From: an uncultured Bacteroidales bacterium
Lineage (GTDB): Bacteria; Bacteroidota; Bacteroidia; Bacteroidales; WCHB1-69
Length of the DNA stretch: 40,047 nt
NCBI GenBank assembly: GCA_900316305.1
Contig: ONCM01000005.1
Span: 129,295-169,341, forward strand
Reading direction: 5' to 3'
Shown piece by piece: positions 7,078 to 39,322 of the stretch (position 1 is its first letter; every line of letters begins with the position of its first letter). Made by a program: the position numbers and the translations under genes. Under the pieces are notes generated by a model, which was not told the origin of the DNA, did not search any database, and saw nothing but the letters and a program-made list of their open reading frames with translations.

Positions 7078-7989
7078 ATGGTTGACACCATTAATTTCGG
7101 TGCATACAAGTGGCATCATATCACCAATCCTACCGTTGAAGATTTGGATTTCTTACGAGATAACTTCCATTTCCACCCTTTGGACATAGAAGACTGTTCT
7201 AGCTTTGTACAACGCCCCAAAATAGATATTTACGACGACTATTTCTTCTTGGTGCTGCATTTCCCATTGCTTGACCAACGTACTAATCTGGTCAAAACAG
7301 AGGAAACCAAGATTTTCTGGGGTCAGGATTACCTGATCACTGTCGGAAATTCCCATTATGTGGTACAAGATCTCTTCAACCTGAAGAAAATCGACCCGGA
7401 ACCTGAGGACGAGGACGAAATCAGCGGCACTTCCGACGCCATGCTCTACCATATCCTCTATAGGATGATGAAGGAGACCTTCCTCATCGTGGAGCGTCTT
7501 GGTACGCAAATTGATTTCATCAGCCGCGAACTGTTTAGCAGCAAGGCAGAGAAGATCATCGAACAGATCTCCATCATCCGTAAAAACATCATCCAGATGA
7601 ACACCATGTTCAAACCGCAACTCCGTCTGTTCAAGATGTTTGAAAGCGGCGAAGTGAAAGGGTTCGCCGATGACATGGAAGAATACTGGGGCAACATTTT
7701 GGACTTCTACCAGAAAATGTGGGATATGGTCGATGACTATGGCGAATTGGTGGCCGGTCTGTCGAGTACGTTCGATTCGTTGCAGGCCAACAAGACCAAC
7801 GAGATCATGCGTATGCTTACGATTATTTCCACTATTGTACTTCCATTGACCTTTATATCAGGACTTTACGGCATGAATGTCGGACTTCCTATGGCGAATT
7901 CCCCATTCGCATTCCTCATTGTAATCGGAATTTGTTTATTCATTTCGGTGGTGCTAATCATTTTCTTCATGAAAAAGCACTGGCTATAA
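7078..7989 (+). CDS. corA: CorA-family divalent cation (Mg2+/Co2+) transporter
   Basis: A 303-residue protein with the CorA layout: a long cytoplasmic N-terminal domain (from WHHITNPTVEDLDFLRDNF), a long helix (about 150-240), and two C-terminal membrane segments. The family signature is present as YGMNVG at the end of the first membrane segment (LPLTFISGLYGMNVG), with the second segment FLIVIGICLFISVVLIIFF and a basic KKHWL tail. CorA pentamers carry magnesium, cobalt or nickel across the inner membrane down the gradient, gated by cytoplasmic Mg2+. The start ATG is preceded at 7065-7070 by AGGAGG, an unusually strong Shine-Dalgarno for this organism group. It has its own -7 element and appears monocistronic. 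Confidence 0.92.
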   Translation: MVDTINFGAYKWHHITNPTVEDLDFLRDNFHFHPLDIEDCSSFVQRPKIDIYDDYFFLVLHFPLLDQRTNLVKTEETKIFWGQDYLITVGNSHYVVQDLFNLKKIDPEPEDEDEISGTSDAMLYHILYRMMKETFLIVERLGTQIDFISRELFSSKAEKIIEQISIIRKNIIQMNTMFKPQLRLFKMFESGEVKGFADDMEEYWGNILDFYQKMWDMVDDYGELVAGLSSTFDSLQANKTNEIMRMLTIISTIVLPLTFISGLYGMNVGLPMANSPFAFLIVIGICLFISVVLIIFFMKKHWL

Positions 7990-7993
7990 CTTA

Positions 7994-8042
7994 GTTAGAA
8001 GTTAGCAGTTAGTAGTTAGCAATTAATGGTCAACGGTCAATG
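7994..8042. repeat. Heptamer array, 7 units (GTTAGCA to GTCAATG)
   Basis: Seven consecutive 7-bp units: GTTAGAA, GTTAGCA, GTTAGTA, GTTAGCA, ATTAATG, GTCAACG, GTCAATG. The ATG at the end of the last unit is the start codon of the retropepsin-like gene. The array begins a few bases after the corA stop. Confidence 0.9.
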
Positions 8043-8468
8043 TACAAATCCTCATTAAAAATAGCAGAATTAGAGCAGGGCGACTACCACACGTTATTGA
8101 ACGGGTCGGTGGCGGGTGAAAGAATTCGTATCGTCCTTGACACAGGTGCGTCCCACAGTTGTATTGACAAACAGTTTGTCAATCAGTTATTTCCGGATAG
8201 AGAAATGGAAAAAAATGATGGCGTGAATGCAGGCATTGGCGGGACAGACTTTGAAGTGCTGGTAACGGATCTGCCGGACTTCAAAATCGGCCACTACCAT
8301 CAGAAACTCCTGGAGAACATCGCGGTAATCGACTTCACCCACATCAATATGGCATACGAGGCCCTGCACCTCAAGCCCGTCCAAATGATATTAGGCAACG
8401 ACTTCTGTGTCAACCACAAAGCCATAATCGATTACGAACAAAAGTTAATCACATTCCAAAAGGGCTGA
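8040..8468 (+). CDS. Small retropepsin-like aspartic protease
   Basis: A 142-residue protein without a signal peptide or membrane segment. IRIVLDTGASHSCID (residues about 26-40) is the clan AA aspartic protease motif, with the catalytic Asp in DTGAS, and MILGNDFCVNHKAIIDY near the C-terminus matches the conserved hydrophobic-Gly strand that follows in retropepsins. With a single D-T/S-G site it should act, if at all, as a homodimer, in the cytoplasm. The start ATG lies in the last unit of a heptamer array, and the last codons plus TGA stop come from a 55-bp repeat, so both ends of the gene border repeats. Target unknown; the catalytic motif is clear, but activity is inferred. Confidence 0.8.
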   Translation: MYKSSLKIAELEQGDYHTLLNGSVAGERIRIVLDTGASHSCIDKQFVNQLFPDREMEKNDGVNAGIGGTDFEVLVTDLPDFKIGHYHQKLLENIAVIDFTHINMAYEALHLKPVQMILGNDFCVNHKAIIDYEQKLITFQKG

Positions 8469-8515
8469 AAGCCCGACGTATGTTAGCCTAGGGTGAGACG
8501 AAGTCGAGCCCTAGG
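8461..8515 (+). repeat. 55-bp two-hairpin repeat, copy A
   Basis: This 55-bp stretch matches the reverse complement of 24715-24769 with 4 mismatches. It contains two inverted repeats: GGGCT/AGCCC with a GAA loop at the left end and CCTAGGG/CCCTAGG at the right end. It supplies the TGA stop of the protease gene (8466-8468) and ends a few bases before a heptamer run that leads into ruvC. Confidence 0.9.
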
Positions 8516-8523
8516 AATCAATG

Positions 8524-8544
8524 GTCAACAGTCAAAATCAAATG
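8524..8544. repeat. Short heptamer array, 3 units
   Basis: Units GTCAACA, GTCAAAA and TCAAATG run directly into the preferred ruvC start codon, which is the ATG of the last unit. This parallels the array before the protease gene. Confidence 0.65.
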
Positions 8545-9105
8545 GAAAACCAACCGACACAACAGAAAATTTTAGGCGTGGACCCAGGTACCAACATTAT
8601 GGGTTATGCCCTATTGAACACGAACCTGAACAAGTCAGACGTGGAAGTGCTCAGCGTGTTGAAGATGACCAAACTCGTAGATCCGTACGCTAAGTTGAAA
8701 TATATTTACGAAAGAATTAATGGGTTAATCGAACAATATCATCCTGATATTCTGGCTATTGAAGCTCCGTTTTACGGCAAAAATGTGCAATCAATGCTGA
8801 AACTGGGTCGTGCGCAGGGCATTGTAATCGCCGCCTCATTGCATGCCGGCATGGAAGTGTATGAATACTCGCCACGTAAGATCAAGCAGTCCATCACCGG
8901 TAACGGCAATGCCTCCAAGGAACAGGTGTCCGCCATGCTCTGTCGGATGTATCCCATTTCGGAAAGCATTGAATATCTGGATGCTACGGATGCCTTGGCG
9001 GTAGCTGTCTGCCATCATTTGCAACACAAAGTGGTGTTCGGAAAATCGAAGGCCACGGACTGGAAAAGCTTCATTTCTCAAAATTCCGACCGGATTGTGA
9101 AATAG
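8542..9105 (+). CDS. ruvC: Crossover junction endodeoxyribonuclease RuvC
   Basis: RuvC resolves Holliday junctions as a dimer in the RuvABC complex. The protein starts near KILGVDPGTNIMGYALL with the first catalytic Asp, continues with ILAIEAPFYGKNVQSMLKLGRAQG carrying the catalytic Glu, and ends with the third acidic cluster in YLDATDALAVAVCHH, the canonical RuvC order. Starting at 8542 gives 187 residues, the usual length. An in-frame ATG at 8521 would add seven residues encoded by a heptamer repeat and is less likely. The gene follows the 55-bp repeat and no clear -7 element is visible directly upstream, so it may be read from the protease transcript. Confidence 0.93.
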   Translation: MENQPTQQKILGVDPGTNIMGYALLNTNLNKSDVEVLSVLKMTKLVDPYAKLKYIYERINGLIEQYHPDILAIEAPFYGKNVQSMLKLGRAQGIVIAASLHAGMEVYEYSPRKIKQSITGNGNASKEQVSAMLCRMYPISESIEYLDATDALAVAVCHHLQHKVVFGKSKATDWKSFISQNSDRIVK

Positions 9106-11535: not shown

Positions 11536-12724
11536 AACGCCCTTGCCCGCCATCGATGGTGGATGCATTGCCATTCACAACATCACGCAGTGCCTGCTGA
11601 ACAGCGGCGCCGATGTGAAGGTACTCGCAGTGGCCACTCCCAAACACCCCTACGTGGTTTCAGCCTACTCCAAATCCTATCTGGAGAAAACCCGCTTCGA
11701 ATCGGTCTATATTGACACGACCCCTCACAAAATCGAAGCACTGAAAACACTATTTACGGGCAATTCCTACCAAATTAGCCGGTTTTATAGCAAAAACATG
11801 GCGACGAAACTGAGCGAAACACTCAAAAAGGAAGATTTCGACATCGTCCATATCGAATCCATTTACATGGCACCCTATATACCGTTGATTCGGAAACTCT
11901 CCAAAGCAAAAATCCTGATGCGTCTGCACAATATCGAGCATCAGATTTGGGAACGGCTCTCCGAAAACGAACGGAACCCCATCATGAAGCTGGCTTACCG
12001 TGTTAACGCCCACCAACTCAAACGAGTGGAACGGAAAATCCTGCATGGGGTGGACGGCTACATGTCTATCTCGGAACCCGATTACAACTACTTCCACGAA
12101 GCTTTCCCCAATGTTCCCGGCACCGTAATCCCATTCGGTATCAATCTGGACAACTATGAGTTAGAGGAGGATGACTACATCGCCACCGACCATCCGGAAC
12201 TGTTCCATATCGGTAGCATGAACTGGTCTCCCAACGTGGAAGGCATCCTGTGGTTTTTGGAAGAAGTGTGGCCCGACATTCTGGCCGCACACCCCGATCT
12301 GACCTTTACGTTGGCCGGCCATGACATTCCGGAGAGCATTCGCTCCCGCCACGATCGGAACGTGAACGTCGTCGGCTCTGTACCGAATGCCAACGAATTT
12401 ATGGCGGAACATGACATTATGATCGTACCCTTGCTTTCGGGTAGCGGTATCCGTATCAAAATAGTGGAAGCCATGGCGTTGGGTAAAGTGGTGATTACTA
12501 CCTCCATCGGTGCAGAAGGACTGGATGTTCAAGATGGTAAGCATCTGTTCATCGCCGACACTCCGGAAGAGTTTGTGGCAGTCATCAACAAATGCGTGGC
12601 TATGCCCGACATCTGCTCCATTATCAGCGAAAACGCCCAGCATTACATCTCCGTTCACCACAATAATGCCGTTATCGCGCAACAAATCATGGACTTTTAT
12701 CAAAAAGTGACCAATAAACAATGA
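11510..12724 (+). CDS. Family 4 glycosyltransferase
   Basis: A 404-residue GT-B fold enzyme. The N-terminal domain opens with MKILQLCHKTPLPAIDGGCI, where the GG loop is typical of GT4. The C-terminal donor domain shows VIPFGINLDNYE, HIGSMNWSPNVEGILWFLE and VPLLSGSGIRIKIVEAMALG, with the Glu of KIVEAMA as the usual nucleotide-sugar contact. No signal peptide is visible, so it is probably cytoplasmic or membrane-peripheral and acts in LPS or polysaccharide synthesis, which fits its overlap with the LptF/G gene upstream. Its TGA stop overlaps the dxs ATG (ATGA), indicating translational coupling. The sugar donor and acceptor are not predictable. Confidence 0.9.
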   Translation: MKILQLCHKTPLPAIDGGCIAIHNITQCLLNSGADVKVLAVATPKHPYVVSAYSKSYLEKTRFESVYIDTTPHKIEALKTLFTGNSYQISRFYSKNMATKLSETLKKEDFDIVHIESIYMAPYIPLIRKLSKAKILMRLHNIEHQIWERLSENERNPIMKLAYRVNAHQLKRVERKILHGVDGYMSISEPDYNYFHEAFPNVPGTVIPFGINLDNYELEEDDYIATDHPELFHIGSMNWSPNVEGILWFLEEVWPDILAAHPDLTFTLAGHDIPESIRSRHDRNVNVVGSVPNANEFMAEHDIMIVPLLSGSGIRIKIVEAMALGKVVITTSIGAEGLDVQDGKHLFIADTPEEFVAVINKCVAMPDICSIISENAQHYISVHHNNAVIAQQIMDFYQKVTNKQ

Positions 12725-14658
12725 AAAAACTTTTGTCAGATATAGAAACGGTTGAAGATCTGCGCAAACTTCCTGTCAATCAGCTGCCACAGTTGTGCGA
12801 AGAGTTGCGTCAGTACATCATCGAGCAAACCGCCCAGCATCCTGGCCATCTCGGATCCAGTCTCGGCGTAGTGGAGCTCACCGTGGCCATCCATTATGTC
12901 TTCGACACCCCTGATGACAAATTGATTTGGGATGTGGGACACCAGGCCTACTGCCATAAAATCTTGACGGGACGTAAGGAACAGTTCTGCACCAACCGCT
13001 GTTATGGCGGCATCAGTGGTTTTCCCCGTCGCGACGAAAGCGAATATGACGCATTCGGCACTGGACACTCCTCCACCTCCATTTCCGCAGTTCTTGGCAT
13101 GGCATTGGCCGCAAAGATGGAAGGCAACATGAAGCGCAACCATATTGCCGTCATCGGCGATGGCGCTATCGGTGGCGGCATGGCCTTCGAAGCCATGAAC
13201 CAAGCGCCCTACCGCGATGTCAACATGCTGGTGATCCTCAATGACAACAAGATTTCCATCGACAAAAGTACTGGTGCGATGAGCAAGTACCTGCTCTCTA
13301 TTACCGCCTCCCCGACTTACAATCGGATGAAAAACCGTTTGTGGAACTTCTTCACCTTCCGCACCAACCATCCCAACCGCGTCACCAACTTCTTCAGCAA
13401 GATGGGCAACTCCATGAAAGGCTGGCTGTTCGGTGGCAGCAACTGGTTTCAGAGCCTCGGCTACCGCTATTTCGGGCCCGCCGACGGCCACGATGTCATC
13501 AATCTGGTGAAGGCTCTCAAAGGGCTCAAAAAATTGCCCGGACAGAAAGTTCTCCATGTGCTGACCATAAAGGGTAAGGGATTGGAAGCGGCAGAACAGA
13601 ACCAGACGAAGTATCATGCACCTGGCAAGTTCGACCCTGACACGGGCGAGATTATTGCTGCCGAAACCAAGCAACAACCGCCTAAATATCAAGATGTTTT
13701 CGGTAATACTATTTTAGAACTGGCACGAGAAGATGAGAAAATAGTTGGCATTACGCCCGCCATGGCCACCGGATGCTCACTCACCATTATGGATGCCGTT
13801 TATCCTGAACGCGTCTTCGATGTAGGCATTGCCGAACAACATGCCGTAACTTTCTCGGCTGGTTTGGCCACCGAAGGCTACATTCCTTTCTGCAATATAT
13901 ACTCCTCATTCCTGCAGCGCGGCTACGATCAGGTAATCCATGACGTGGCATTACAGAAACTGCCAGTTATTTTCTGCATAGACCGTGCAGGACTGGTCGG
14001 CGAGGACGGCTCCACGCACCAAGGCGCTTTCGATTTGGCCTTCCTGCGCTGCATCCCCGACCTGATCATCGCCTCCCCTCTGAACGAACACGAGTTGCGC
14101 AACATGATGGTCACCGCCTATCAAAACGCAAAGAATCAAGGACTTCCGTTCGTCATCCGTTACCCGCGCGGTAGAGGCGTACTCCTTGACTGGCACAATG
14201 AACCTCAAGTGCTGCCTATTGGGAAAGGGCAACTCCTGCAAAAGGGTGAAAAAGTATTGTTGCTGACCCTCGGACCCTTGGGCAATGCCGTCAGCCATGT
14301 GCTGGAGACGTTGGCAAAAGAAGGTATCCATCCGGGACATTTTGACGTGAAGTTCCTTAAACCGCTGGACGAAAGCGCTTTGGAAGAATTTACAAAACAA
14401 TATTCAGTGTGGATTACGGTGGAGGATGGTACCGAAAAAGGAGGATTATTCTCCGAAATTGCGGAATTCCTCGCCTGTAGAGACGCGCTGCAGCACGTCT
14501 CTACGAATGGTTCAGATTTCCATCATCCCCAACTGCTGCATATTGCCATCCCCGACGAGTTCATCACCCATGGTGACATCCCGAATCTGTACAAAAAGGT
14601 CGGTTTCGACAACGATTCTATAGAAAAAACCATCCGCCAAGCCTGGGAGATGGCGTAA
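12721..14658 (+). CDS. dxs: 1-deoxy-D-xylulose-5-phosphate synthase
   Basis: Dxs condenses pyruvate and glyceraldehyde 3-phosphate with thiamine diphosphate, the first step of the MEP isoprenoid pathway. The 645-residue protein shows HPGHLGSSLGVVELTVAI, WDVGHQAYCHKILTGRK, FGTGHSSTSISAVLGMA, the ThDP motif IGDGAIGGGMAFEAMN with LNDNKISIDKS, DVGIAEQHAVTFSAGLA with the catalytic Glu, and a C-terminal transketolase-C domain ending near IAIPDEFITHG. Residues 586-595 (CRDALQHVST) are encoded by a copy of the 28-bp palindromic repeat, inserted in frame in the C-terminal domain; without it the segment FLA-NGSDF would be of ordinary length. The frame remains open and all catalytic motifs are intact, so the enzyme is probably functional. 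Confidence 0.95.
   Translation: MKKLLSDIETVEDLRKLPVNQLPQLCEELRQYIIEQTAQHPGHLGSSLGVVELTVAIHYVFDTPDDKLIWDVGHQAYCHKILTGRKEQFCTNRCYGGISGFPRRDESEYDAFGTGHSSTSISAVLGMALAAKMEGNMKRNHIAVIGDGAIGGGMAFEAMNQAPYRDVNMLVILNDNKISIDKSTGAMSKYLLSITASPTYNRMKNRLWNFFTFRTNHPNRVTNFFSKMGNSMKGWLFGGSNWFQSLGYRYFGPADGHDVINLVKALKGLKKLPGQKVLHVLTIKGKGLEAAEQNQTKYHAPGKFDPDTGEIIAAETKQQPPKYQDVFGNTILELAREDEKIVGITPAMATGCSLTIMDAVYPERVFDVGIAEQHAVTFSAGLATEGYIPFCNIYSSFLQRGYDQVIHDVALQKLPVIFCIDRAGLVGEDGSTHQGAFDLAFLRCIPDLIIASPLNEHELRNMMVTAYQNAKNQGLPFVIRYPRGRGVLLDWHNEPQVLPIGKGQLLQKGEKVLLLTLGPLGNAVSHVLETLAKEGIHPGHFDVKFLKPLDESALEEFTKQYSVWITVEDGTEKGGLFSEIAEFLACRDALQHVSTNGSDFHHPQLLHIAIPDEFITHGDIPNLYKKVGFDNDSIEKTIRQAWEMA
14477..14504. repeat. 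28-bp palindrome (GTAGAGACG family), copy inside dxs
   Basis: GTAGAGACGCGCTG followed by CAGCACGTCTCTAC, an inverted repeat with one mismatch in the arms. It lies entirely within the dxs reading frame and contributes to ten codons. It is identical to the copy at 14690-14717. Confidence 0.95.
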
Positions 14659-14689: not shown

Positions 14690-14717
14690 GTAGAGACGCG
14701 CTGCAGCACGTCTCTAC
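14690..14717. repeat. 28-bp palindrome, copy between dxs and trmH-like gene
   Basis: Identical in all 28 bases to the copy inside dxs, 186 bp away. It lies between two convergent genes. Its right arm is followed by two further direct copies of the arm sequence (see 14718-14749). Confidence 0.95.
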
Positions 14718-14749
14718 TGTAACGCGTCTCTACTGCATTGCGTCTCTAC
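14718..14749. repeat. Tandem half-palindromes CGTCTCTAC
   Basis: After the full palindrome the arm CGTCTCTAC occurs twice more (14724-14732 and 14741-14749), giving three direct copies of the arm at about 16-bp spacing. The last copy includes the TAG/TGT region at the end of the convergent methyltransferase gene, whose stop is at 14746-14748. Confidence 0.8.
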
Positions 14750-16925: not shown

Positions 16926-16953
16926 GTAGAGACGCGCCACGGCACGTCTCTAC
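16926..16953. repeat. 28-bp palindrome, copy between ribH and fmt
   Basis: GTAGAGACGCGCCA followed by CGGCACGTCTCTAC, an imperfect palindrome of the same family, in the intercistronic gap of the ribH-fmt pair. No T run follows on the minus strand. Confidence 0.93.
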
Positions 16954-16961
16954 GGGAAACA

Positions 16962-17453
16962 TCAACCAAGATCGTGTGACAATTCCAACATCTTCAGCGC
17001 AGTAACCGCCCCTTCAACTCCCTTATTGCCGTGTTTACCGCCCGCACGGTCTTCTGCCTGTTCCATCGTGTTGCAAGTCAGCACACTGAAAATCACCGGC
17101 TTAGAAAACTTCAACCCCACATTCATGATACCGTCAGCAACGGCTTGCGAGATAAAGTCGAAATGGCGGGTTTCGCCTTGTATGACACACCCGATGCAGA
17201 TGACCGCATCCACGAAAGCCTCTTTAAGCATCCACTGGGCACCCATGGGCAGCTCAAAACTGCCTGGAACGTGCTTCACGAGGATGTTCTCTTGAGGTAC
17301 GCCGTGTTCGAGCAGGCATTCTTCCGCACCTTTTAAAAGCGAATCGGTAATGCGGTCATTCCATTCGCTGACCACAATACCGATTTTCTTTTTACTGGCG
17401 GAAGAAAACTCAAAGGGCTTGAATTCCGATAAGTTTTTCTTCTTTTCCGTCAT
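16962..17453 (-). CDS. ribH: 6,7-dimethyl-8-ribityllumazine synthase
   Basis: RibH joins 5-amino-6-ribitylaminouracil with dihydroxybutanone phosphate in the penultimate step of riboflavin synthesis and forms pentamers or icosahedral shells. The 163-residue sequence contains VVSEWNDRITDSLLKGA, VKHVPGSFELPMGAQ, ICIGCVIQGETRHFDFIS with the catalytic His of TRHFD, and VLTCNTMEQAEDRAGGKHGN, all typical. The N-terminal stretch before KKKIGIVVSEWN is somewhat longer than in the shortest homologues. It starts 6 bp after the stop of the TPR protein gene, so the two are probably cotranscribed. The other rib genes are not nearby. Confidence 0.95.
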   Translation of the reverse strand: MTEKKKNLSEFKPFEFSSASKKKIGIVVSEWNDRITDSLLKGAEECLLEHGVPQENILVKHVPGSFELPMGAQWMLKEAFVDAVICIGCVIQGETRHFDFISQAVADGIMNVGLKFSKPVIFSVLTCNTMEQAEDRAGGKHGNKGVEGAVTALKMLELSHDLG

Positions 17454-19225: not shown

Positions 19226-19253
19226 GTAGAGACGTGCCATGGCGCGTCTCTAC
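19226..19253. repeat. 28-bp palindrome, copy between metK and fabD
   Basis: GTAGAGACGTGCCA followed by TGGCGCGTCTCTAC, an imperfect palindrome of the same family. It lies 9 bp after the metK stop and touches the heptamer array. Confidence 0.93.
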
Positions 19254-19262
19254 GAAAACAAT

Positions 19263-20501
19263 TTACAATCCAAATTCTTTTTTAATGACGTCCACGTAAT
19301 CGAGTCTTTCCCATGGGAAGAAAGTGACTTTGCGGGGACCTTGTGCCGTCTGGACCTCCGCTTCGTAGGTGTCACGTCCGAAATGACCGTATGAAGCGGT
19401 GGGCTCGTAAATCGGGTTCTTGAGCTGGAAGCGGGTGATGATGTCGTACGGACGCATCGGGAAGATGTCGCGGATGTGCATAGCAATCTCGCTATCGTGC
19501 ATTTTCACCTTGGCGGTACCGTAAGTGTTGACATAAAGGCCCACGGGCTCTGCCTTGCCAATGGCGTAGGCCACTTGGATCAGCACTTGGTCGCACAAAC
19601 CAGCAGCCACCATGTTTTTGGCAATATGGCGGGTGGCGTAAGCTGCTGAACGATCAACCTTTGAGGGATCCTTGCCGGAGAAGGCACCTCCGCCGTGCGC
19701 ACCGCGACCACCGTAGGTGTCCACGATAATTTTACGGCCCGTGAGACCCGTGTCCCCGTGCGGTCCGCCAATGACGAACTTACCGGTTGGGTTCACAAAG
19801 AGCTGAAAATCCGTATTGAAAAGGCGTTGCACCTTCTTCGGACAGCTTTTCTTGACGCGAGGAATCAAAATTTTCTCCACATCGCGACGAATGGTCTCCA
19901 ACATGGTAGCTTCGTCAGCGAAGTCGTCATGCTGCGTGGAGACAACGATGCTGTCAATGCGTTCAGGTCTGTGTCGCTCCGAATACTGTACAGTAACCTG
20001 CGATTTGGAATCGGGGCGCAGGTAGGTCATCTTTTTGCCTTCCTTGCGGATGGCGGCCAATTCCTGCACAAAACGATGAGCCAGTTCGATAGGCAGCGGC
20101 ATGTAGTTGTCCATCTCATTGCAAGCATACCCGAACATCATGCCTTGGTCGCCAGCTCCTTGTTCTTCCAATGCCGCACGCTCCACCCCTTGGTTAATAT
20201 CCGGTGACTGACTGTGAATGGTGGAAATCACGCCACAAGACTTATAGTCAAATTGATAGTCGCTTTTATTGTAACCGATATTCCGAATGACGCGGCGAGC
20301 CACATCGTCCACGGAAACATAACCTTCGGTCTTCACCTCGCCGGCGCACACCACCAATCCGGTGGTCACCAGTGTCTCACATGCCACTTTTGATTCAGCG
20401 TCCTGCGCCAAAAAACTATCCAACAATGCGTCCGAAATCTGGTCGCAAATCTTATCCGGGTGCCCTTCTGACACGGATTCTGATGTGAATAAATAACTCA
20501 T
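19263..20501 (-). CDS. metK: S-adenosylmethionine synthetase
   Basis: MetK makes S-adenosylmethionine from methionine and ATP. The 412-residue protein begins [20 protein letters not shown] with the methionine/ATP-site His, and carries [34 protein letters not shown] and [19 protein letters not shown], which bind the phosphates and metal ions. Length and the insert pattern match the Bacteroidetes group. The leader between the -7 element at 20614-20622 and the ATG contains a SAM-II-like riboswitch candidate (20552-20604), so expression is probably repressed by the product. It is divergent from lgt. Confidence 0.96.
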
Positions 20502-20551
20502 ATTCAGTATTTTAAATCGTTAATTTTTAAAAACCGAAAAGCGCGGAGATA

Positions 20552-20604
20552 GATGGTTTAGCATTTTTTTCTGTGGTTGCAATCATTACAAATCTGTCCA
20601 CGCG
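20552..20604 (-). ncRNA. SAM-II-like riboswitch candidate in the metK leader
   Basis: On the minus strand the leader has a 5' stem arm GUGG (20598-20601), a loop containing GAUUU and GAUUGCAA, the matching arm CCAC (20573-20576), an A-rich linker ending AAAU, then GCUAAA and CAU. This reproduces the SAM-II (SAM-alpha) H-type pseudoknot as I know it: the 17-base block from GAUUU to UUGCA, loop AUUU pairing with AAAU, AUG pairing with CAU, and the conserved GCUAAA. SAM-II is known from alphaproteobacteria and Bacteroidetes upstream of methionine and SAM genes. An additional 11-bp helix (20601-20611 with 20534-20545) encloses it and is followed by five U residues. P1 is short (4 bp) and has extra unpaired bases. 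Confidence 0.7.
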
Positions 20605-20613
20605 TTTTCGGCG

Positions 20614-24714: not shown

Positions 24715-24769
24715 CCTAGGGCTCGGCTCCGCCTCACTCTAGGCTAACATACGTCGGGCTTTCAGCCCT
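24715..24769 (-). repeat. 55-bp two-hairpin repeat, copy B
   Basis: Reverse-complement copy of 8461-8515 with 4 mismatches in 55 bases. The left-hand hairpin GGGCT/AGCCC is conserved; the other (CCTAGGG/CCCTAGG in copy A) has one mismatch here. It lies directly upstream of the RseC-like gene and directly abuts the heptamer array at 24770. Confidence 0.9.
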
Positions 24770-26195: not shown

Positions 26196-26229
26196 AAAAA
26201 AAATAGAGACGCAAAATTTTGCGTCTCTA
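26196..26229 (-). terminator. Palindrome repeat copy acting as a terminator after the PepSY cluster
   Basis: TAGAGACGCAAAA and TTTTGCGTCTCTA form a perfect 26-bp palindrome (26204-26229), a member of the GTAGAGACG family. On the minus strand it is followed by eight T residues (26196-26203), so it has the form of an intrinsic terminator for the PepSY-like gene that ends at 26250, just ahead of the radA promoter. Confidence 0.8.
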
Positions 26230-26249
26230 CTAGTTTTTAATACATCGTT

Positions 26250-26690
26250 TTAATCATCTAAACCGATGAAATTACCATTCTTGTCGAATATCAGGTCAAC
26301 ATCGGTGTCAACCCCTAACACGGACAAGCCGACTTTATAGCGATTATTCTCAAATTCGATTTCCTCAATAAATGCACCAGGATAATTGTCGGTCACATAC
26401 GTGGATATGCTGGCGGGGAAGAAACCAACGGGAACGGGTCTGTCTTCGCAATCAACCTTCTTCCAATCACCATTGGATCTGAAGTCCACATCCGTTCCAT
26501 CAATGAGATCCACATCGTAGTCACCGTCTTGCTCTTTGATAACGGACACAATATCAATGCCCGGGAAATAGGAGCTCAAAAACGTCTTAGCCTTAGCAGG
26601 CAATTTGTCGGCAGGAACCGGTTTGTCACTACAAGACACGAAAGCGGTCAAAGCGACCACGCTCATTATAATCACAAATAATTTTTTCAT
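26250..26690 (-). CDS. PepSY-like lipoprotein 1
   Basis: A 146-residue exported protein with a lipoprotein signal peptide (IIMSVVALTAFVSC, lipid Cys then Ser). The mature part has two related halves, each with a helix (DKLPAKAKTFLSSYFPG; FPASISTYVTDNYPG) followed by strands (IVSVIKEQDGDYDVDLIDGT; FIEEIEFENNRYKVGL). This is the layout of the PepSY-like/beta-lactamase-inhibitor-like family common in Bacteroidetes. It ends FDKNGNFIGLDD like its two neighbours. It is the last of three tandem paralogues on the minus strand. The function of such proteins is not established; peptidase inhibition is suggested by PepSY relatives. The +1/+2 residues suggest membrane anchoring. Confidence 0.85.
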   Translation of the reverse strand: MKKLFVIIMSVVALTAFVSCSDKPVPADKLPAKAKTFLSSYFPGIDIVSVIKEQDGDYDVDLIDGTDVDFRSNGDWKKVDCEDRPVPVGFFPASISTYVTDNYPGAFIEEIEFENNRYKVGLSVLGVDTDVDLIFDKNGNFIGLDD

Positions 26691-26731
26691 TGCTTAAATT
26701 TTTAGTTATTAATAATTTGGGTTGTTTGTTT

Positions 26732-26759
26732 GACTATTAACCATTAACCGTTATTAATC
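26732..26759. repeat. Heptamer array, 4 units (GACTATT/AACCATT)
   Basis: Units GACTATT, AACCATT, AACCGTT and ATTAATC, between PepSY-like genes 1 and 2. It contains the TAA stop of the second gene (26754-26756, minus strand). Confidence 0.82.
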
Positions 26760-27173
26760 ATCCGCTCCCATGAAGCCGCCATTTTTGTCGAAGACCAAAT
26801 CAAGGTCATTGTCCATCTCCACTTCATAGCGCTTGTGCTCATATTTGACGTGGGTGGGGAAATTCATGGGAAACTTGGCGGAAAGATATTTGGCAGTGTT
26901 GGGAAGAAGAATACCAGCGGGCAGCGGATTCAGGCCGCAATCAACCTCTTTCCACTGGCCGTTGGATTTGAACTCCATCTCCGTACCATCAAACAAAATG
27001 ACATCATACTTGAGGCCATCCCGGCGCACGGAAAGGACTTCCGCACCTTGAAAATTGGCAGAGATAAACTGTTTTGCCTTGTTGGGCAACTTGTCAGGGG
27101 AAACGGTTCTGTCACACGACACAAACGCTCCTAACATAAAAACGCCCATTATAATTGCAATTAATTTTTTCAT
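26754..27173 (-). CDS. PepSY-like lipoprotein 2
   Basis: A 139-residue paralogue of the neighbouring genes, with a lipoprotein signal peptide (IIMGVFMLGAFVSC). The mature part repeats the two-half pattern: DKLPNKAKQFISANFQGAEV with LSVRRDGLKYDVILFDGTEM, then LLPNTAKYLSAKFPMNFPTH with KRYEVEMDNDLDLVFDKNGG. It lacks about seven residues relative to paralogue 1 in the second half. The start is separated from the upstream paralogue by an eight-unit heptamer array, and the end lies in another, so the spacing between these genes is filled by repeats. Probably periplasmic and lipid-anchored; function unknown. Confidence 0.83.
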   Translation of the reverse strand: MKKLIAIIMGVFMLGAFVSCDRTVSPDKLPNKAKQFISANFQGAEVLSVRRDGLKYDVILFDGTEMEFKSNGQWKEVDCGLNPLPAGILLPNTAKYLSAKFPMNFPTHVKYEHKRYEVEMDNDLDLVFDKNGGFMGADD

Positions 27174-27204
27174 ATTTTAGAATTATTCGTAATACTTTGA
27201 TATT

Positions 27205-27253
27205 GACCATTGACTATTAACCAATAACCTATAACCAATAACCTATAACCATT
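27205..27253. repeat. Heptamer array, 7 units (AACCAAT/AACCTAT)
   Basis: Units GACCATT, GACTATT, AACCAAT, AACCTAT, AACCAAT, AACCTAT and AACCATT, the longest regular array in the window together with 7994-8042. It lies between PepSY-like genes 2 and 3 and ends 4 bp before the stop of gene 3. Confidence 0.9.
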
Positions 27254-27257
27254 ATAA

Positions 27258-27677
27258 TCAATCGTCGGCATAGAGGAATTTGCCGCTCTTGTCGAACTTC
27301 AACTCCAAATCGGTTTCGAGCTCGATGTCGTAACCGTTGTATTTTTTCTCAATCTTAGTGATGATATTGTTCGGAAAATTGGTCTTCACGTATTGCGCAA
27401 TGGCCGTAGGAATAAGGGCTGCCGGAACCGCAGTCACGTGGCAATCTACCTCTTTCCAGTCACCTTGGAGGGTGAAATCGATCTTGGTACCATCCTTCAA
27501 CATCACCTCATATTCGCCGTCATCCTGTTTGGCAGAAAGGAAACCAACATTGCTGAAGTGCTTATTAATAAACTGTTGCGCTTTTTGCGGCAGTTGTGCA
27601 AACGTGACAGGTATGTCTGCGAAAGCGTGCACATTGAGCGCTATCACACTCAATAATAACAAAAATACTTTTTTCAT
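27258..27677 (-). CDS. PepSY-like exported protein 3
   Basis: A 139-residue protein counted from the ATG at 27677; the open frame extends upstream but only across the promoter. The signal peptide (MKKVFLLLLSVIALNVHAFA) lacks a lipobox Cys, unlike its two neighbours, so this paralogue is probably free in the periplasm or secreted. Its mature part shows the same two halves: FAQLPQKAQQFINKHFSNVG with FLSAKQDDGEYEVMLKDGTK, and LIPTAIAQYVKTNFPNNIIT with KIEKKYNGYDIELETDLELK, ending FDKSGKFLYADD. It is the first gene of the trio, with a -7 element 38 bp upstream, divergent from glnA. Confidence 0.85.
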   Translation of the reverse strand: MKKVFLLLLSVIALNVHAFADIPVTFAQLPQKAQQFINKHFSNVGFLSAKQDDGEYEVMLKDGTKIDFTLQGDWKEVDCHVTAVPAALIPTAIAQYVKTNFPNNIITKIEKKYNGYDIELETDLELKFDKSGKFLYADD

Positions 27678-27714
27678 CTTTTCTGTTTTTAATACGACAA
27701 AGATTATTCTGACG

Positions 27715-27723
27715 GCAAAAATA
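27715..27723 (-). promoter_or_regulatory. Bacteroidetes -7 element for the PepSY-like trio
   Basis: TATTTTTGC on the minus strand, 37 bp before the start of PepSY-like gene 3. Confidence 0.65.
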
Positions 27724-27760
27724 CAAAAATAATCATTGCATATACTATTCGAAAAATATG

Positions 27761-27769
27761 TATATTTGC
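27761..27769 (+). promoter_or_regulatory. Bacteroidetes -7 element for glnA
   Basis: TATATTTGC, fitting TAnnTTTG, 48 bp before the glnA start and divergent from the PepSY-like promoter. Confidence 0.7.
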
Positions 27770-27816
27770 CCCCGCATAAAAAAGCAATTTCAAACCTATA
27801 AAAAATACCGAAAAGT

Positions 27817-29325
27817 ATGAAAGACAACATCACGATGAGCTTGAATCCGCTCGTGAACTATTTCAAGAAAAGCCCGAAAGAATTCACCAAGGCGGACATG
27901 ATCAAATACGTGGAGGAGAACAACATCCCCATGGTCAATTTTCACTATGTGGCAGGCGACGGGCGCATCAAGACCCTCGGTTTCGTGCTGCACAGCCGCG
28001 ATTACCTCGAACAGATCCTCTCCAACGGCGAACGCGTCGATGGCTCCAATATTTTCCCGGCCTTCATCCATGCCGGCTCCAGCGACCTGTATGTAATCCC
28101 GCGCTTCTCCACCGCTTTCCTGAACCCCTTCACCGAGATCCCCACCCTCTCCTTCCTCTGCTCCTACTATAACAACGAAGGCAAACCGCTGGAAAACTCT
28201 CCTGAATACATCCTGCGCAAGGCTGCCAAATCGTTCACCGAAGTCACCGGCAACTACTTCCAAGCCATGGGCGAGCTCGAATATTACGTTATCGGCGATG
28301 AAGACGACCTCTTCACCATCCCGGATCAGAGAGGCTATCACGAGTCTTCTCCGTTCACCAAGTTCGAGCACTTCCGCGCTGAATGTATGCTCAACATCGC
28401 CAAGATGGGCGGTCTAATCAAATACGGTCACTCCGAAGTGGGCAACTTCACCATGGACGGCAAGATCTACGAGCAGAACGAAATCGAATTCCTCGTTACG
28501 GATGTGCAAGATGCTGCAGACCAGCTGATTCTGGCCAAGTGGATTATCCGCAACCTCGCTTACGAATACGGCTTCGACGTGACCTTCTCCCCGAAGATCA
28601 CCGCCGGCAAGGCAGGCAGCGGTCTCCACATCCACACCTGCATCGTCGATGGCAAGGGCAAGAACCAGATGGTGACCAAGGGCAAGCTCAACAGCATCGC
28701 CAAGACCGCCATCGCCGGCTATATGACCTGCGCCGGCTCCCTCACCGCCTTCGGCAACACCAACCCGACCTCCTACTTCCGCCTCGTGCCGCATCAGGAA
28801 GCTCCCACGTCTGTATGCTGGGGCGATCGCAACCGTTCCGTGCTCGTGCGCGTGCCGCTGGGTTGGACTCATAAGAACGACATCGTGGCTGAGCTGAACC
28901 CGCTGGAGAAGGCCGTCAACAAAGACCGTTCCCAGAAACAGACTGTAGAATTCCGCTGTCCGGATGGCTCCGCCGACATCTACCTCCTGCTCGCCGGTCT
29001 CGTCTGCGCTGCCCGTCACGGCTTCGAAATGGAGAACGCCCTCGAATTCGCCGAGAAGACTTACGTCGATGTGGATATCCACCGTCCGGAGAACAAGGCT
29101 CTCGTGGAAAGACTGGCACAGCTGCCCGCCTCCTGCTGGGAGTCCGCCGATGAGCTCAGCGCACACCGCGCTATATTCGAGGCTCACGGCGTCTTCGACC
29201 GCTCCATGATTGACGACATCATCAAACAGCTCAAATCCTTCGACGACCGCAAAATCCGCGAACAAATCGCCAAGAAACCCGAGCTGATGACCAAAATGGT
29301 GAAGGAATATTTCTATTGCGGATAA
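27817..29325 (+). CDS. glnA: Glutamine synthetase
   Basis: Glutamine synthetase joins ammonia to glutamate using ATP. The 502-residue protein contains the metal and glutamate site AMGELEYYVIGDEDD, the ATP/glutamate strand KITAGKAGSGLHIHTCIV with the conserved His, and NPTSYFRLVPHQEAPTSVCW followed by GDRNRSVLVRVPLGW, the arginine-rich active-site segment. The C-terminal region from about residue 395 is helical. The length lies above classical GSI (about 445-470) and well below GSIII (about 700), and matches a Bacteroidetes GSI-like group. The usual adenylylation-site context is not obvious. Codon use is visibly more GC-rich and regular (ATC, CTC, AAG) than in neighbours, consistent with high expression. 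A palindrome-type terminator follows. Confidence 0.92.
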   Translation: MKDNITMSLNPLVNYFKKSPKEFTKADMIKYVEENNIPMVNFHYVAGDGRIKTLGFVLHSRDYLEQILSNGERVDGSNIFPAFIHAGSSDLYVIPRFSTAFLNPFTEIPTLSFLCSYYNNEGKPLENSPEYILRKAAKSFTEVTGNYFQAMGELEYYVIGDEDDLFTIPDQRGYHESSPFTKFEHFRAECMLNIAKMGGLIKYGHSEVGNFTMDGKIYEQNEIEFLVTDVQDAADQLILAKWIIRNLAYEYGFDVTFSPKITAGKAGSGLHIHTCIVDGKGKNQMVTKGKLNSIAKTAIAGYMTCAGSLTAFGNTNPTSYFRLVPHQEAPTSVCWGDRNRSVLVRVPLGWTHKNDIVAELNPLEKAVNKDRSQKQTVEFRCPDGSADIYLLLAGLVCAARHGFEMENALEFAEKTYVDVDIHRPENKALVERLAQLPASCWESADELSAHRAIFEAHGVFDRSMIDDIIKQLKSFDDRKIREQIAKKPELMTKMVKEYFYCG

Positions 29326-29356: not shown

Positions 29357-29391
29357 GTAGAGACGCGCTGCTGCACGTCTCTACTTTTTTT
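29357..29391 (+). terminator. Palindrome repeat copy acting as glnA terminator
   Basis: GTAGAGACGCGCTG followed by CTGCACGTCTCTAC (29357-29384) is a GTAGAGACG-family palindrome with a mismatched centre. It is followed on the plus strand by seven T residues, so it has intrinsic-terminator form 31 bp after the glnA stop. Confidence 0.82.
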
Positions 29392-33150: not shown

Positions 33151-34470
33151 ATGAAAAAGATACTTTTGTTATGGCTGTGTGTGGCACTGGCATCAGGAAT
33201 GTCGGCGCAAGACACTACTAAGACCTATTGGAAAAATAACGGCAAACTGATGTCCATTGGCGTGGAGAAAAAAGGTGTCCAACAAGGACATTGGATCTAT
33301 TACCACAACAACGGCACCAAATGGACTGAGGGCGACTACCGCGACGGCATCAAGGTGGGCATCTGGAAAGTGTGGTATGATAACGGCAAACTCGGACAGG
33401 AATACCACGCTGACAACGGTCCGTTCAAAAGCTGGTTCCAGTCGGGCAAGGTGGAGTCAGAAGGCCAGTTCAAAGAGGGACAACGCGATGGACAATGGAC
33501 ATTCTATCATCCTAATGGACAGTTATATAAGAGTGTGACGTATATTGGCGACAGCGTCCACGGACACGTCATTGAGTATTTCGACAACGGTGATAAATAC
33601 TTTGAAGGTACCTACGACATGGGGCTGCTGGAGGGTGACGCCTACTGGTGGAACCGCGGCGGCAAAAAGGATATGGAGGGCAAGCTTGTGCATGGACTGC
33701 AACAGGGCCACTGGAAATTTTATGACAACGAAGGCCGTCTCGGCAGCGAAGGCGACTTCGACAAGGGTCTGCAAAACGGTACATGGATCTACTATTATGA
33801 AAATGGAAACACTTGGCGCAAAGGCGATTATGTAAACGGAAAACGCGAAGGCATCTGGAAAGCTTGGTTCGAGGACGGCAAACTGCAACGCGAAGGCTCA
33901 TTCAAAAATGATAAGGAAAACGGTCTTTGGATCGCCTATTTCCCGAACGGAAAAGTCAAGGACAAAGGCACTTTCAAGGACGGCATCATGGATGGTTTTT
34001 GGGAAGGATGGTTCGAGAACGGATACAAGAAGTACGAAAACAATTACAAAGGCGGCCAGCTGAACGGTCTCTGCACCATGTATTGGGAGGAGACAGGCAA
34101 GATGCACCGCCAAGGCAAATACACTGAAAACCAGAAAAATGGCGTATGGAACGAATATGCGCAAAACGGCCATATCCTCTCCACAGGCAAATACGCCAAA
34201 GACATGAAAGAGGGCAAATGGGTTTTCTACAACATGTACGAGAAAGTGGCGAGAGAGCAAAACTTCGTACACGATGTGCCCGAAGGCACCTTCACCGAAT
34301 ATTACGACAACGGCGTGAAACACACGCAGGGCGCATTCCATAACCGTGTCCGTCACGGCAAATGGTCCAGCTGGAACCCGCAAGGGCAATTACAATACTG
34401 CGCCATCTTCGAAAATGGTCACAAAGTGAAAGAAGTGTATGTCTCGGATCCAAAGAAAACTCCCTTTTAA
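33151..34470 (+). CDS. Secreted protein made of about 17 MORN-type repeats
   Basis: Counting from the ATG at 33151 gives 439 residues; the frame is open further upstream but that part is the shadow of hutI and lies before the promoter. Residues 1-20 form a signal peptide (MKKILLLWLCVALASGMSAQ). The entire mature part is about 17 tandem units of 23-24 residues with the pattern (W/Y)-x-NG-x-x-x-x-x-G-x-(Y/F)-x-x-G-x-x-x-G-x-W, as in IYYHNNGTKWTEGDYRDG and AWFEDGKLQREGSFKNDKE. This is the MORN_2/YwqK-type repeat, expected to fold as an elongated beta-hairpin stack. No catalytic domain is attached. It is probably a periplasmic or surface binding protein; in Bacteroidetes such proteins are abundant but poorly understood. 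Confidence 0.85.
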   Translation: MKKILLLWLCVALASGMSAQDTTKTYWKNNGKLMSIGVEKKGVQQGHWIYYHNNGTKWTEGDYRDGIKVGIWKVWYDNGKLGQEYHADNGPFKSWFQSGKVESEGQFKEGQRDGQWTFYHPNGQLYKSVTYIGDSVHGHVIEYFDNGDKYFEGTYDMGLLEGDAYWWNRGGKKDMEGKLVHGLQQGHWKFYDNEGRLGSEGDFDKGLQNGTWIYYYENGNTWRKGDYVNGKREGIWKAWFEDGKLQREGSFKNDKENGLWIAYFPNGKVKDKGTFKDGIMDGFWEGWFENGYKKYENNYKGGQLNGLCTMYWEETGKMHRQGKYTENQKNGVWNEYAQNGHILSTGKYAKDMKEGKWVFYNMYEKVAREQNFVHDVPEGTFTEYYDNGVKHTQGAFHNRVRHGKWSSWNPQGQLQYCAIFENGHKVKEVYVSDPKKTPF

Positions 34471-34534
34471 CCTGTTAAAAAAACACAAATCCCTGCGTGA
34501 AATAATGGAGGAATCCAAGTTAAAATTTGTGAAT

Positions 34535-35173
34535 ATGGATATTAAGACGTTTCATTTCAATCCGATTATGGTCAACACCTATATCTTATCGGATGAAACG
34601 GGCGAGGCGGTGATTGTGGATCCGGGCAACTGCCAGTCGTACGAGGACGCACAGATCCGCGATTATGTTGCCAGCAAGAATTTGAAAATCAAATATATCA
34701 TCAACACCCATCCGCACATCGACCATATTGCGGGCAATCCGTGGTGCGTGTCGGAATACCATCCGGAACTGCTGATGCATGAGGCTGGTATGCCCATTTA
34801 CAACAAGGCATTCGCTTACGCTGTCGCTTTCGGGCTGGAAATCGAGAAAATGCCCGACCCCGACAGGTTCCTGAAAGAGGGCGATGTGGTGACGTTCGGC
34901 AACCAACAGCTCAGCGTGAGCTACACCCCCGGTCACTGTGACGGAAGTATCTGTCTGTACAGTGCTGACAACAAGGTAATTATCACTGGTGATCTGATCT
35001 TCGAGCAATGTGTCGGCCGCAGCGACCTGCCCTCCGGCAATGAAGCATTGCTGCAACAAAGCATCCGAGAGAAAATCCTCACCCTTGATGACGATGTCAC
35101 CATCCTTTCTGGCCACGGCGATTCCACCACTGTGGGGCGCGAACGGCGTTCGAATCCCTACATCACCATGTAA
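34535..35173 (+). CDS. Metallo-beta-lactamase-fold hydrolase (glyoxalase II-like)
   Basis: A 212-residue MBL-fold protein. Zinc ligands are visible in YIINTHPHIDHIAGNPW (HxHxDH), SYTPGHCDGSICLYS (His), VIITGDLIFEQCVGRSDLP (Asp) and the C-terminal TILSGHGDSTTVGRERRSNP (His), so both metal sites are complete. The overall form is that of the small hydroxyacylglutathione-hydrolase-like group, whose substrates in Bacteroidetes are mostly unknown. The start at 34535 gives the usual N-terminus (MDIKTFHFNPIMVNTYIL); ATG codons at 34505 and 34439 are alternatives, the latter overlapping the MORN gene. The gene is closely followed by folE. A truncated palindrome repeat lies right after the stop. Confidence 0.88.
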   Translation: MDIKTFHFNPIMVNTYILSDETGEAVIVDPGNCQSYEDAQIRDYVASKNLKIKYIINTHPHIDHIAGNPWCVSEYHPELLMHEAGMPIYNKAFAYAVAFGLEIEKMPDPDRFLKEGDVVTFGNQQLSVSYTPGHCDGSICLYSADNKVIITGDLIFEQCVGRSDLPSGNEALLQQSIREKILTLDDDVTILSGHGDSTTVGRERRSNPYITM

Positions 35174-35175
35174 AA

Positions 35176-35196
35176 ACGTGCCATGGCGCGTCTCTA
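35176..35196. repeat. Truncated palindrome repeat (right arm and centre)
   Basis: ACGTGCCATGGCGCGTCTCTA matches the centre and right arm of the GTAGAGACG palindrome family, closest to the copy at 19226; the left end (GTAGAG) is missing. It starts 2 bp after the stop of the MBL-fold gene. Confidence 0.85.
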
Positions 35197-35234
35197 TGAC
35201 AATCTATAATTTAGAAAAATTAACAGCATAAAAT

Positions 35235-36407: not shown

Positions 36408-36480
36408 GTTTCAGTAGCTCAGCAGGTAGAGCACATCCCTTTTAAGGATGGGGTCCTGGGTTCGAGCCCCAGCTGGAACA
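36408..36480 (+). tRNA. tRNA-Lys (anticodon UUU)
   Basis: A complete 73-base cloverleaf. The acceptor arms GTTTCAG and CTGGAAC pair with one G-U, the D arm contains AGCTCAGCAGGTAGAGC, the anticodon stem CATCC/GGATG encloses the loop CTTTTAA with anticodon TTT at 36441-36443, and the T arm reads CTGGG-TTCGAGC-CCCAG. The discriminator base is A and the CCA end is not encoded. A -7 element precedes it and a strong intrinsic terminator follows six bases later. Confidence 0.97.
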
Positions 36481-39294: not shown

Positions 39295-39322
39295 GTAGAG
39301 ACGTTTCATGAAACGTCTCTAC
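39295..39322. repeat. 28-bp perfect palindrome at the end of the GH2 gene
   Basis: GTAGAGACGTTTCA followed by TGAAACGTCTCTAC is a perfect palindrome of the same family. The TAG at 39319-39321 (minus strand) is the stop codon of the GH2 gene, so the repeat supplies that stop. Confidence 0.95.

Follow-up and report, generated by a model that had tools for sequence, protein, structure and literature searches.

The dxs locus

The window analysed here is a 40,047-nucleotide stretch of DNA from an uncultured Bacteroidales bacterium (WCHB1-69 lineage; contig ONCM01000005.1, positions 129,295 to 169,341). Its dxs gene contains a short palindromic element in frame. A second copy and two partial units follow the stop codon.

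12721..14658, plus strand: dxs, 1-deoxy-D-xylulose-5-phosphate synthase, 645 amino acids, with the Pfam domains DXP_synthase_N, Transket_pyr and Transketolase_C
14477..14504, plus strand: 28-bp element GTAGAGACG-CGCTGCAGCA-CGTCTCTAC, in frame within dxs
14690..14717, unstranded: identical second copy of the dxs 28-mer, starting 32 bases past the dxs stop
14718..14749, plus strand: two tandem 16-bp half-elements, TGTAACG-CGTCTCTAC and TGCATTG-CGTCTCTAC, each with 7 variable bases and the right arm

The general layout of the element is GTAGAGACG-N10-CGTCTCTAC, that is, two 9-bp arms around a 10-bp centre. With one additional base per side, the dxs copy fills the codons 14476-14505, which are translated into CRDALQHVST, residues 586-595 of Dxs. 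An earlier note on this DNA had given this place and frame correctly. It had also described a full palindrome. The 28-mer is indeed present, but its pairing is not perfect: the centre CGCTGCAGCA has one C.A mismatch pair on the coding strand, which becomes G.T on the opposite strand. The element folds as DNA with -8.4 kcal/mol on the coding strand and -10.7 kcal/mol on the other strand, and the better strand forms a 12-bp stem with a 4-nt loop. The identical copy reported beyond the gene is an exact 28-mer at 14690-14717, 185 bases on. Removal of the ten codons was expected to leave a continuous domain. It yields FLA-NGSDFHHPQLLH as predicted, but this segment is two residues longer than the empty FLE-KHVFSNRLLH of relatives.

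An ordinary coding sequence that resembles a palindrome by chance is refuted for this site. The arm GTAGAGACG has 15 matches in the window against 0.11 expected from 100 dinucleotide shuffles, and the exact 28-mer recurs at the distance given above. The segment is absent from the displayed alignment with a solved Dxs (2o1s) and from 29 of the 39 scorable Dxs rows. No point in favour of chance was found.

The Transketolase_C match of the window Dxs (Pfam) spans residues 501-634 and has the insert inside. In one alignment to the solved Dxs 2o1s, 12 residues at the insert are unpartnered. An AlphaFold model of middling quality (34 sequences, mean pLDDT 69.7, pTM 0.72) places residues 586-595 in the C-terminal domain, where helix 576-590 ends and a loop begins that leads to strand 604-610. 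The loop residues 594-599 have a confidence under 50. The insert would lengthen the helix end and the loop of the C-terminal domain, probably with little effect. That the protein tolerates the insertion, as had been suggested, is borne out insofar as dxs is intact.

Copies in the window and the genome

The family is dispersed over the genome (3,275,704 bases in 99 contigs) with 177 elements of the form GTAGAGACG-N6..16-CGTCTCTAC, both arms being exact. The spacer is N10 in 172 of them, and a reversed-pattern control yielded 0. A sample of 427,341 bases of the genome, in which up to two arm mismatches were accepted, contained 41 elements, all of 28 bp. The centre is itself palindromic and belongs to few discrete types: CGCCATGGCA in 8, TTTCATGAAA in 7, CAAAATTTTG in 6 and CGCTGCAGCA in 5 of the 41 elements.

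Copies lie mostly downstream of stop codons and sometimes in frame within genes. On a simple ATG-ORF map, as opposed to that of a trained gene caller, 11 of the 41 copies are inside ORFs, compared to 3,777 of 4,273 random positions. Genes are thus avoided, not forbidden. Among the intergenic copies, 25 of 30 are located at most 50 bp downstream of a stop on the same map, compared to 39% of 496 random intergenic positions. The window contains the following further copies, all unstranded:

16926..16953: copy with centre CGCCACGGCA, immediately after the stop of ORF 16962-17453 (minus)
19226..19253: copy with centre TGCCATGGCG, immediately after the stop of ORF 19263-20501 (minus)
26203..26230: copy with centre CAAAATTTTG and one arm mismatch, beyond the stop of ORF 26250-26690 (minus)
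29357..29384: copy with centre CGCTGCTGCA, past the stop of ORF 27817-29325 (plus)
35170..35197: degenerate copy with centre TGCCATGGCG and 3 arm mismatches; its GTAA gives the TAA stop of ORF 34439-35173 (plus)
39295..39322: copy with centre TTTCATGAAA, its end overlapping the stop of ORF 39319-39945 (minus)

The degenerate copy stands outside the 41 counted elements because of its three arm mismatches.

Further coding copies, for which the earlier note had proposed a search, are present: the sampled copies inside ORFs involve dxs and seven other identifiable genes. Pfam matches revealed an alpha-2-macroglobulin, a Por secretion tail and a molybdopterin-oxidoreductase-like protein. In an M28 peptidase the copy appears, by eye, to be within the signal peptide, and in HydF it forms the last residues, beyond the final Pfam domain. 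Two neighbouring sigma-70 genes (L157 10295-11875, plus; 7725-8828, minus) have three and two in-frame palindromes, mostly outside the Pfam domains. Copies in ORFs are read in the two frames that avoid the TAG of GTAG; a copy in the remaining frame brings a stop with it. This is how dxs ends in L024 (5917), L025 (5896) and L027 (5896), three relatives in which its stop codon is the TAG from the GTAG of the palindrome.

Partial and variant forms accompany the full copies. Among 24 lone right arms, five are 16-bp units of 7 variable bases and CGTCTCTAC located directly behind another right arm. Three of the five are in L143 and the other two at window 14718-14749. Sibling palindromes have compensated arms, namely GTAGGGGCG...CGCCCCTAC and GTAGAGCCG...CGGCTCTAC (L361 2444-2471, L369 1521-1548, L128 850-877; L146 11243, L159 13490). 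No Rfam family at the gathering threshold matches the element in the window. A search of the open-access literature for the arm sequence GTAGAGACG gave unrelated titles among the matches listed. Searches for palindromic repeats in Bacteroidetes or Bacteroidales and for RAYT found no description of the family in titles and the beginnings of abstracts.

Age of the dxs site

For the dxs comparison, 67 loci from the genus and its near relatives gave 40 distinct genes. A supported subclade (100/99) comprises 18 rows. Outside this subclade, a short empty segment is present in 22 of 22 rows. Inside, 17 rows can be scored: 10 filled ones, including the window, L104 and L133, and 7 empty ones. Row L118 ends before the site and was counted as unknown. 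Genome G003 has both arms perfect at the same site with the centre ATGTACACAT. Six relatives have decayed copies at the same base, in a segment of equal length and with varying decay. L104 retains a shortened remnant and L133 a doubtful one.

A recent insertion unique to this lineage, which the earlier note had proposed to check by alignment with close relatives, does not agree with these alleles: up to nine other species still have the element at this dxs site, be it intact, decayed or shortened. A similar-length segment of unrelated DNA in all homologues, which that note had considered as well, was looked for among the relatives and did not occur. The dxs site predates the species; the sequence that the copy has now may be recent.

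On the Dxs tree, the filled and the empty state are scattered, with 5 changes. L118 is labelled empty on this tree, so that 5 is perhaps one too many. This scatter implies that the site's history includes repeated loss or a recombination of the C-terminal part. The net length in comparison to empty alleles, none of which is a clean empty site, is +21 bp for the decayed dxs copies, +36 bp for the window dxs and +21 or +24 bp in the molybdopterin gene.

Fixed arms and changing centres at shared sites

Orthologues of three further in-gene copies were aligned from 40 genomes of the genus, mostly fragmented, MAG-type assemblies, with up to 30 loci per gene. At these sites, the same base is filled in many species with differing centres, and in other species the copy is decayed or the site empty. 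Centres at the alpha-2-macroglobulin site are CGCCATGGCA, TTGCGCGCAA, CGGCGCGCCG and CAAAATTTTG; those at the M28 site are TTTCATGAAA, CAATGCATTG/A, CTATGCATAG and ATGTGCAC-types. As at the dxs site, which is filled at the same base in several species, the arms are kept and the centres differ.

A systematic pairing of 159 elements by their flanks resulted in 11 orthologous sites. Ninety ortholog pairs from nine sites, each member with at most one arm mismatch, were compared. The arms have 0.47 mismatches in 18 positions and the centres 3.9 in 10, with the caveat that pairs of the same site depend on one another and that the alpha-2-macroglobulin rows include some paralogues. Centres are identical in 31 of the 90 pairs and differ at four or more positions in 47; seven of the nine sites show differences of this size. 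Three genome pairs (G000/G013, G014/G020 and G001/G005) have flanks of about 92% identity (BLAST, aligned parts), the best value among those of the 90 pairs with at least four centre differences. Here, at least 4 centre mismatches compare to about 1 in 10 expected.

With near-variants lumped, the 13 labelled rows of the M28 gene tree cannot be explained by fewer than 6 centre changes; 7 of the tree's 20 inner branches are well supported and 13 are not. The alpha-2-macroglobulin and the molybdopterin trees require 3 centre changes each, which is the minimum for 4 classes.

Centre usage differs strongly between species. In a genome-wide count that covers TTTCATGAAA alone, exact elements with this centre were 57 of 124 in G006, 35 of 95 in G014, 36 of 172 in the genome of the window and 5 of 37 in G021, compared to 2 of 237 in G013, 1 of 184 in G017 and 0 of 145 in G003. 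The close relatives G006 and G021 share five sites. At three of them, G006 has TTTCATGAAA and G021 has GCCATGGC- or GCCGACGGC-types; at the two others, both have the GCCATGGC-type. Fourteen recurring centres account for 96 of 115 intact copies, out of 1,024 possible perfect 10-bp palindromes, and the same types recur at different sites. The dxs centre of the window is found in 5 of the 41 sampled copies of its genome, the dxs copy and its neighbour included. The dxs centre of G003 is a ATGTGCAC-type, which is also present in two others of five sampled G003 copies.

The surroundings of changed centres vary. In the molybdopterin gene of G047 and G062, the closest pair observed, with flanks of 98-99% identity, extra substitutions are clustered beside the element. 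In G014/G020, the 17 bases to the right of the element are identical and the only changes lie immediately to its left, and G000/G013 has an indel left and several changes right. The close pair G006/G021 yielded shared sites and messy indels only, without clean empty sites. The related phage contigs L172 and L178 have the same flanks with different centres, and a clean junction was not found between them. A clean strain pair of empty and filled or of old and new state was sought for a rewriting event and not found, and no target duplication could be made out.

Search for a mobilising enzyme

The genus has 87 matches to the Y1 transposase family PF01797, of which 33 loci were examined (4 of 4 in the genome of the window and 29 of 83 in the others). 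A resident flanking REPtron or RAYT was rejected for these 33 loci, as none is flanked by copies. In six of them, a copy or an arm variant lies within about 1.5 kb, never on both sides, and some loci are cut by contig ends. No dedicated enzyme for the element was found among the Y1 loci examined. Across 36 genomes, the copy number correlates with the number of Y1 genes (rho 0.68; 0.48 after genome size) and with genome size alone (rho 0.70). The three Y1-less genomes among them have 0, 2 and 3 copies; one Y1-bearing genome also has 0. A Y1 enzyme may act in trans.

Copies at a spacing of 1,857 bases in viral contigs raised a flanking transposon as a candidate. It was rejected because the contigs are near-identical stretches of one phage. 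The genes between these copies look, by eye, like phage structural genes.

The window contains other repeats and RNA features. Copies of Acido-Lenti-1 (RF01687) are dispersed in the genome, in the window at 8461-8515 (minus) and 24715-24769 (plus) and further at L143 17286-17340 and L129 1744-1798. The two window copies are complementary to each other at 93%. A partial match to a Y1 transposase is found at a distance of about 50 bases from the L129 copy; the Acido-Lenti-1 'sRNA' may therefore be a REP-like mobile repeat. A SAM-II riboswitch is located at 20548-20607 (minus) and a tRNA gene at 36408-36480 (plus). A repeat family, D4, occurs three times in 26250-27833 at intervals of 504 bases, each copy at the end of a minus-strand ORF; the three ORFs are perhaps tandem paralogues.

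Occurrence beyond the genus

In a sample of 60 genomes, exact elements were present in 34 of 36 genomes of the genus, the genome of the window included, and in 8 of 24 others of the order. Among 296 genomes drawn across the phylum, 37 had exact elements, again with the genome of the window included. Viral contigs gave 109 matching stretches, of which 80 were taken as loci with 101 copies, partly from the same phages. The centres of these viral copies are fully symmetric in 37 and symmetric at 8 of 10 positions in 50. The TGCCATGGCG form had no match among annotated phages.

A collection of 72,556 plasmids was searched with five forms. The CGATTAATCG form had 13 matches, all cyanobacterial; 3 of them reach at least 99%, and the others are imperfect or partial. 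The TGCCATGGCG form matched once, in Planktothrix, and the CAAAATTTTG form four times, in Nostoc, two Tenacibaculum and Aureibacter. Neither the dxs form nor the CACGGCCGTG form had a match in these plasmids. Non-ribosomal peptide synthetases on cyanobacterial plasmids contain in-frame copies (L515 601-630, L518 601-629). The copy of Halotia is somewhat decayed (VQTRLIASLH) and that of Nostoc nearly intact (IETQNFTSLL). Copies in frame are therefore not restricted to the genus of the window.

Proposed rewriting of placed copies and alternative histories

On balance, the dxs insert is probably a copy of a non-autonomous, REP- or RPE-like 28-bp repeat whose old sites are rewritten with other palindromes. 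A placed copy would either decay as ordinary coding sequence or be rewritten, the source being another palindrome of the same genome or the allele of a relative. Such rewriting would shift the centre usage within a species and make old copies in genes look new. Taking place lineage by lineage, it would fit the dxs centres of the window and of G003, both judged from small samples. We infer an exchange of palindromes at occupied sites, which would yield fixed arms, discrete centres and shifts in usage between species. The rewriting would most likely proceed via the hairpin form in single-stranded DNA, either by template switching in replication or by a Y1/HUH enzyme in trans. The constancy of the arms suggests that the acting factor sees the arms or the foot of the hairpin. 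The 16-bp half-elements beside full copies could be joints that connect the foot of one hairpin to the tip, or nearly the tip, of another.

Several observations speak against this reading: the fruitless searches for a rewriting event and, among the Y1 loci examined, for a dedicated enzyme, the 31 of 90 pairs with identical centres, the same type at two of the five G006/G021 sites, the only 3 changes on two of the trees and the 13 inner branches of the M28 tree that are not well supported. The clustered substitutions of G047/G062 look like the trace of a short allelic tract import and argue against a pure element-to-element mechanism. They also speak for a history in which old, differing centres were shuffled by patchy homologous recombination among related Bacteroidales, with no palindrome exchange today: in this pair, the centre change lies inside the substitution cluster while the surrounding DNA is 98-99% identical. 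The patchy dxs alleles on the Dxs tree (5 changes, one row mislabelled) agree with such shuffling as well. We regard this history as rather unlikely. It accounts neither for the origin of different palindromes at one site nor for the strong species differences in centre usage, and the changes in G014/G020 are confined to the immediate left of the element, with 17 identical bases right, although G000/G013 has changed on both sides.

The empty alleles inside the filled dxs subclade could instead stem from independent insertions, with different family members hitting the same preferred base in several species. A precedent exists in two Xanthomonas species with different REPs at about the same recB site, according to the available parts of the source (PMC3733652). 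In the dxs, M28 and molybdopterin genes, decayed copies occupy exactly the same base, which argues for a single old occupation and makes repeated insertion quite improbable. Even less can be said for a compensatory drift, in which selection maintains the hairpin as an RNA or a protein-binding site, the bound arms stay constant and the centre varies within the limits of pairing, with help from quasi-palindrome correction. Near-variants of one centre (TTTCATGAAA, TTTCAGGAAA, TTTCCCGAAA) and compensated arm variants (GTAGGGGCG with CGCCCCTAC) would suit it. Discrete centres that recur across sites, 14 types making up 96 of 115 intact copies despite 1,024 possible palindromes, argue against slow drift, and within genes a selection for the hairpin would compete with the protein. 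We therefore give drift a very low probability.

The rewriting of occupied sites may have a wider form, which we put forward tentatively and hold to be somewhat doubtful. In this form, the arms are a cassette address, and whole palindromes or their centres are exchanged at occupied sites by a process that detects the GTAGAGACG/CGTCTCTAC hairpins. A species' favoured palindrome would sweep many fixed sites, including ten-residue windows of core proteins, with the frame kept. The address would be common to Bacteroidota, phages and Cyanobacteria.

Comparison with known repeat systems

Whether REPs persist by selection, transposition or gene conversion is an old question; the title of Higgins et al. 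1988 reportedly asks 'evolution by gene conversion?' of them. Coding sites suit this question because their flanks can be aligned. The sites in dxs and other genes are traceable across 40 genomes of the genus with fixed arms and changed centres. Such sites offer a direct test of exchange in a Bacteroidota strain that can be cultured, and they point to a way in which a core protein could have ten residues replaced in a single step. Cyanobacteria are said to contain very short small mobile repeats (SDR, Elhai et al. 2008, as cited in PMC4390886). The present family resembles them in its shortness and also occurs in cyanobacteria.

GTAG-tagged REPs (Di Nocera et al. 2013, PMC3733652) are the closest counterpart between genes. 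As far as the accessible sections of that paper describe them, they are palindromes of 20-40 bp that start with GTAG and reach high copy numbers; the present element has 28 bp in 172 of 177 copies. They too are located mainly downstream of genes and sometimes inside, and have subfamilies with changed stem pairs as well as G.T pairs. The different REPs at about the same recB site of two Xanthomonas species, in these sections, are the closest precedent for a change at the same site. In contrast to a GTAG left unpaired at one end, GTAG here pairs with a terminal CTAC, so that both ends are alike and the tag is on both strands. A flanking RAYT is missing from the loci examined here. The same sections assign GTAG families to Proteobacteria, Cyanobacteria, Chloroflexi and PVC, and mention Bacteroidetes only under CGTC repeats. 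The present element differs from CGTC-tagged REPs in that CGTC is internal (in CGTCTCTAC) and the ends are GTAG and CTAC.

Rickettsia palindromic elements (RPE) share the in-frame insertion inside genes, and RPE-4 and RPE-6 are CGTC families in the portions seen of the same source (PMC3733652). The likeness is one of description, as RPEs were compared by their partial published description; the element here ends in GTAG/CTAC with CGTC only internal. Some REPs of the REPtron/TnpA-REP system have perfect stems and GTAG, and the C|T cleavage of single-stranded hairpins by TnpA-REP is a conceivable route for the present family, judging from extracts of three papers (PMC8266576, PMC2817692, PMC6006769). 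The Y1 subclasses 1.2 and 2.4 are found in both Cyanobacteria and Bacteroidetes, as stated in the extract of PMC6006769. The difference from a REPtron is that 0 of the 33 Y1 loci examined here are flanked by the element. Perfect coding palindromes with arms that change in concert, for which template switching was proposed, are described for the mitochondria of Nematomorpha in the accessible text of PMC6649704. There, long repeats (up to 284 bp) of mitochondrial genes are concerned, whereas the present family is a dispersed one of 28 bp with fixed arms and changing centres.

Membership in the GTAG REPs or the RPEs is assigned only with reserve, since GTAG is paired at both ends, RAYT flanks are absent from the examined loci and RPEs are known here by description. 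In its behaviour, the family works like RPEs in genes and like GTAG REPs between genes.
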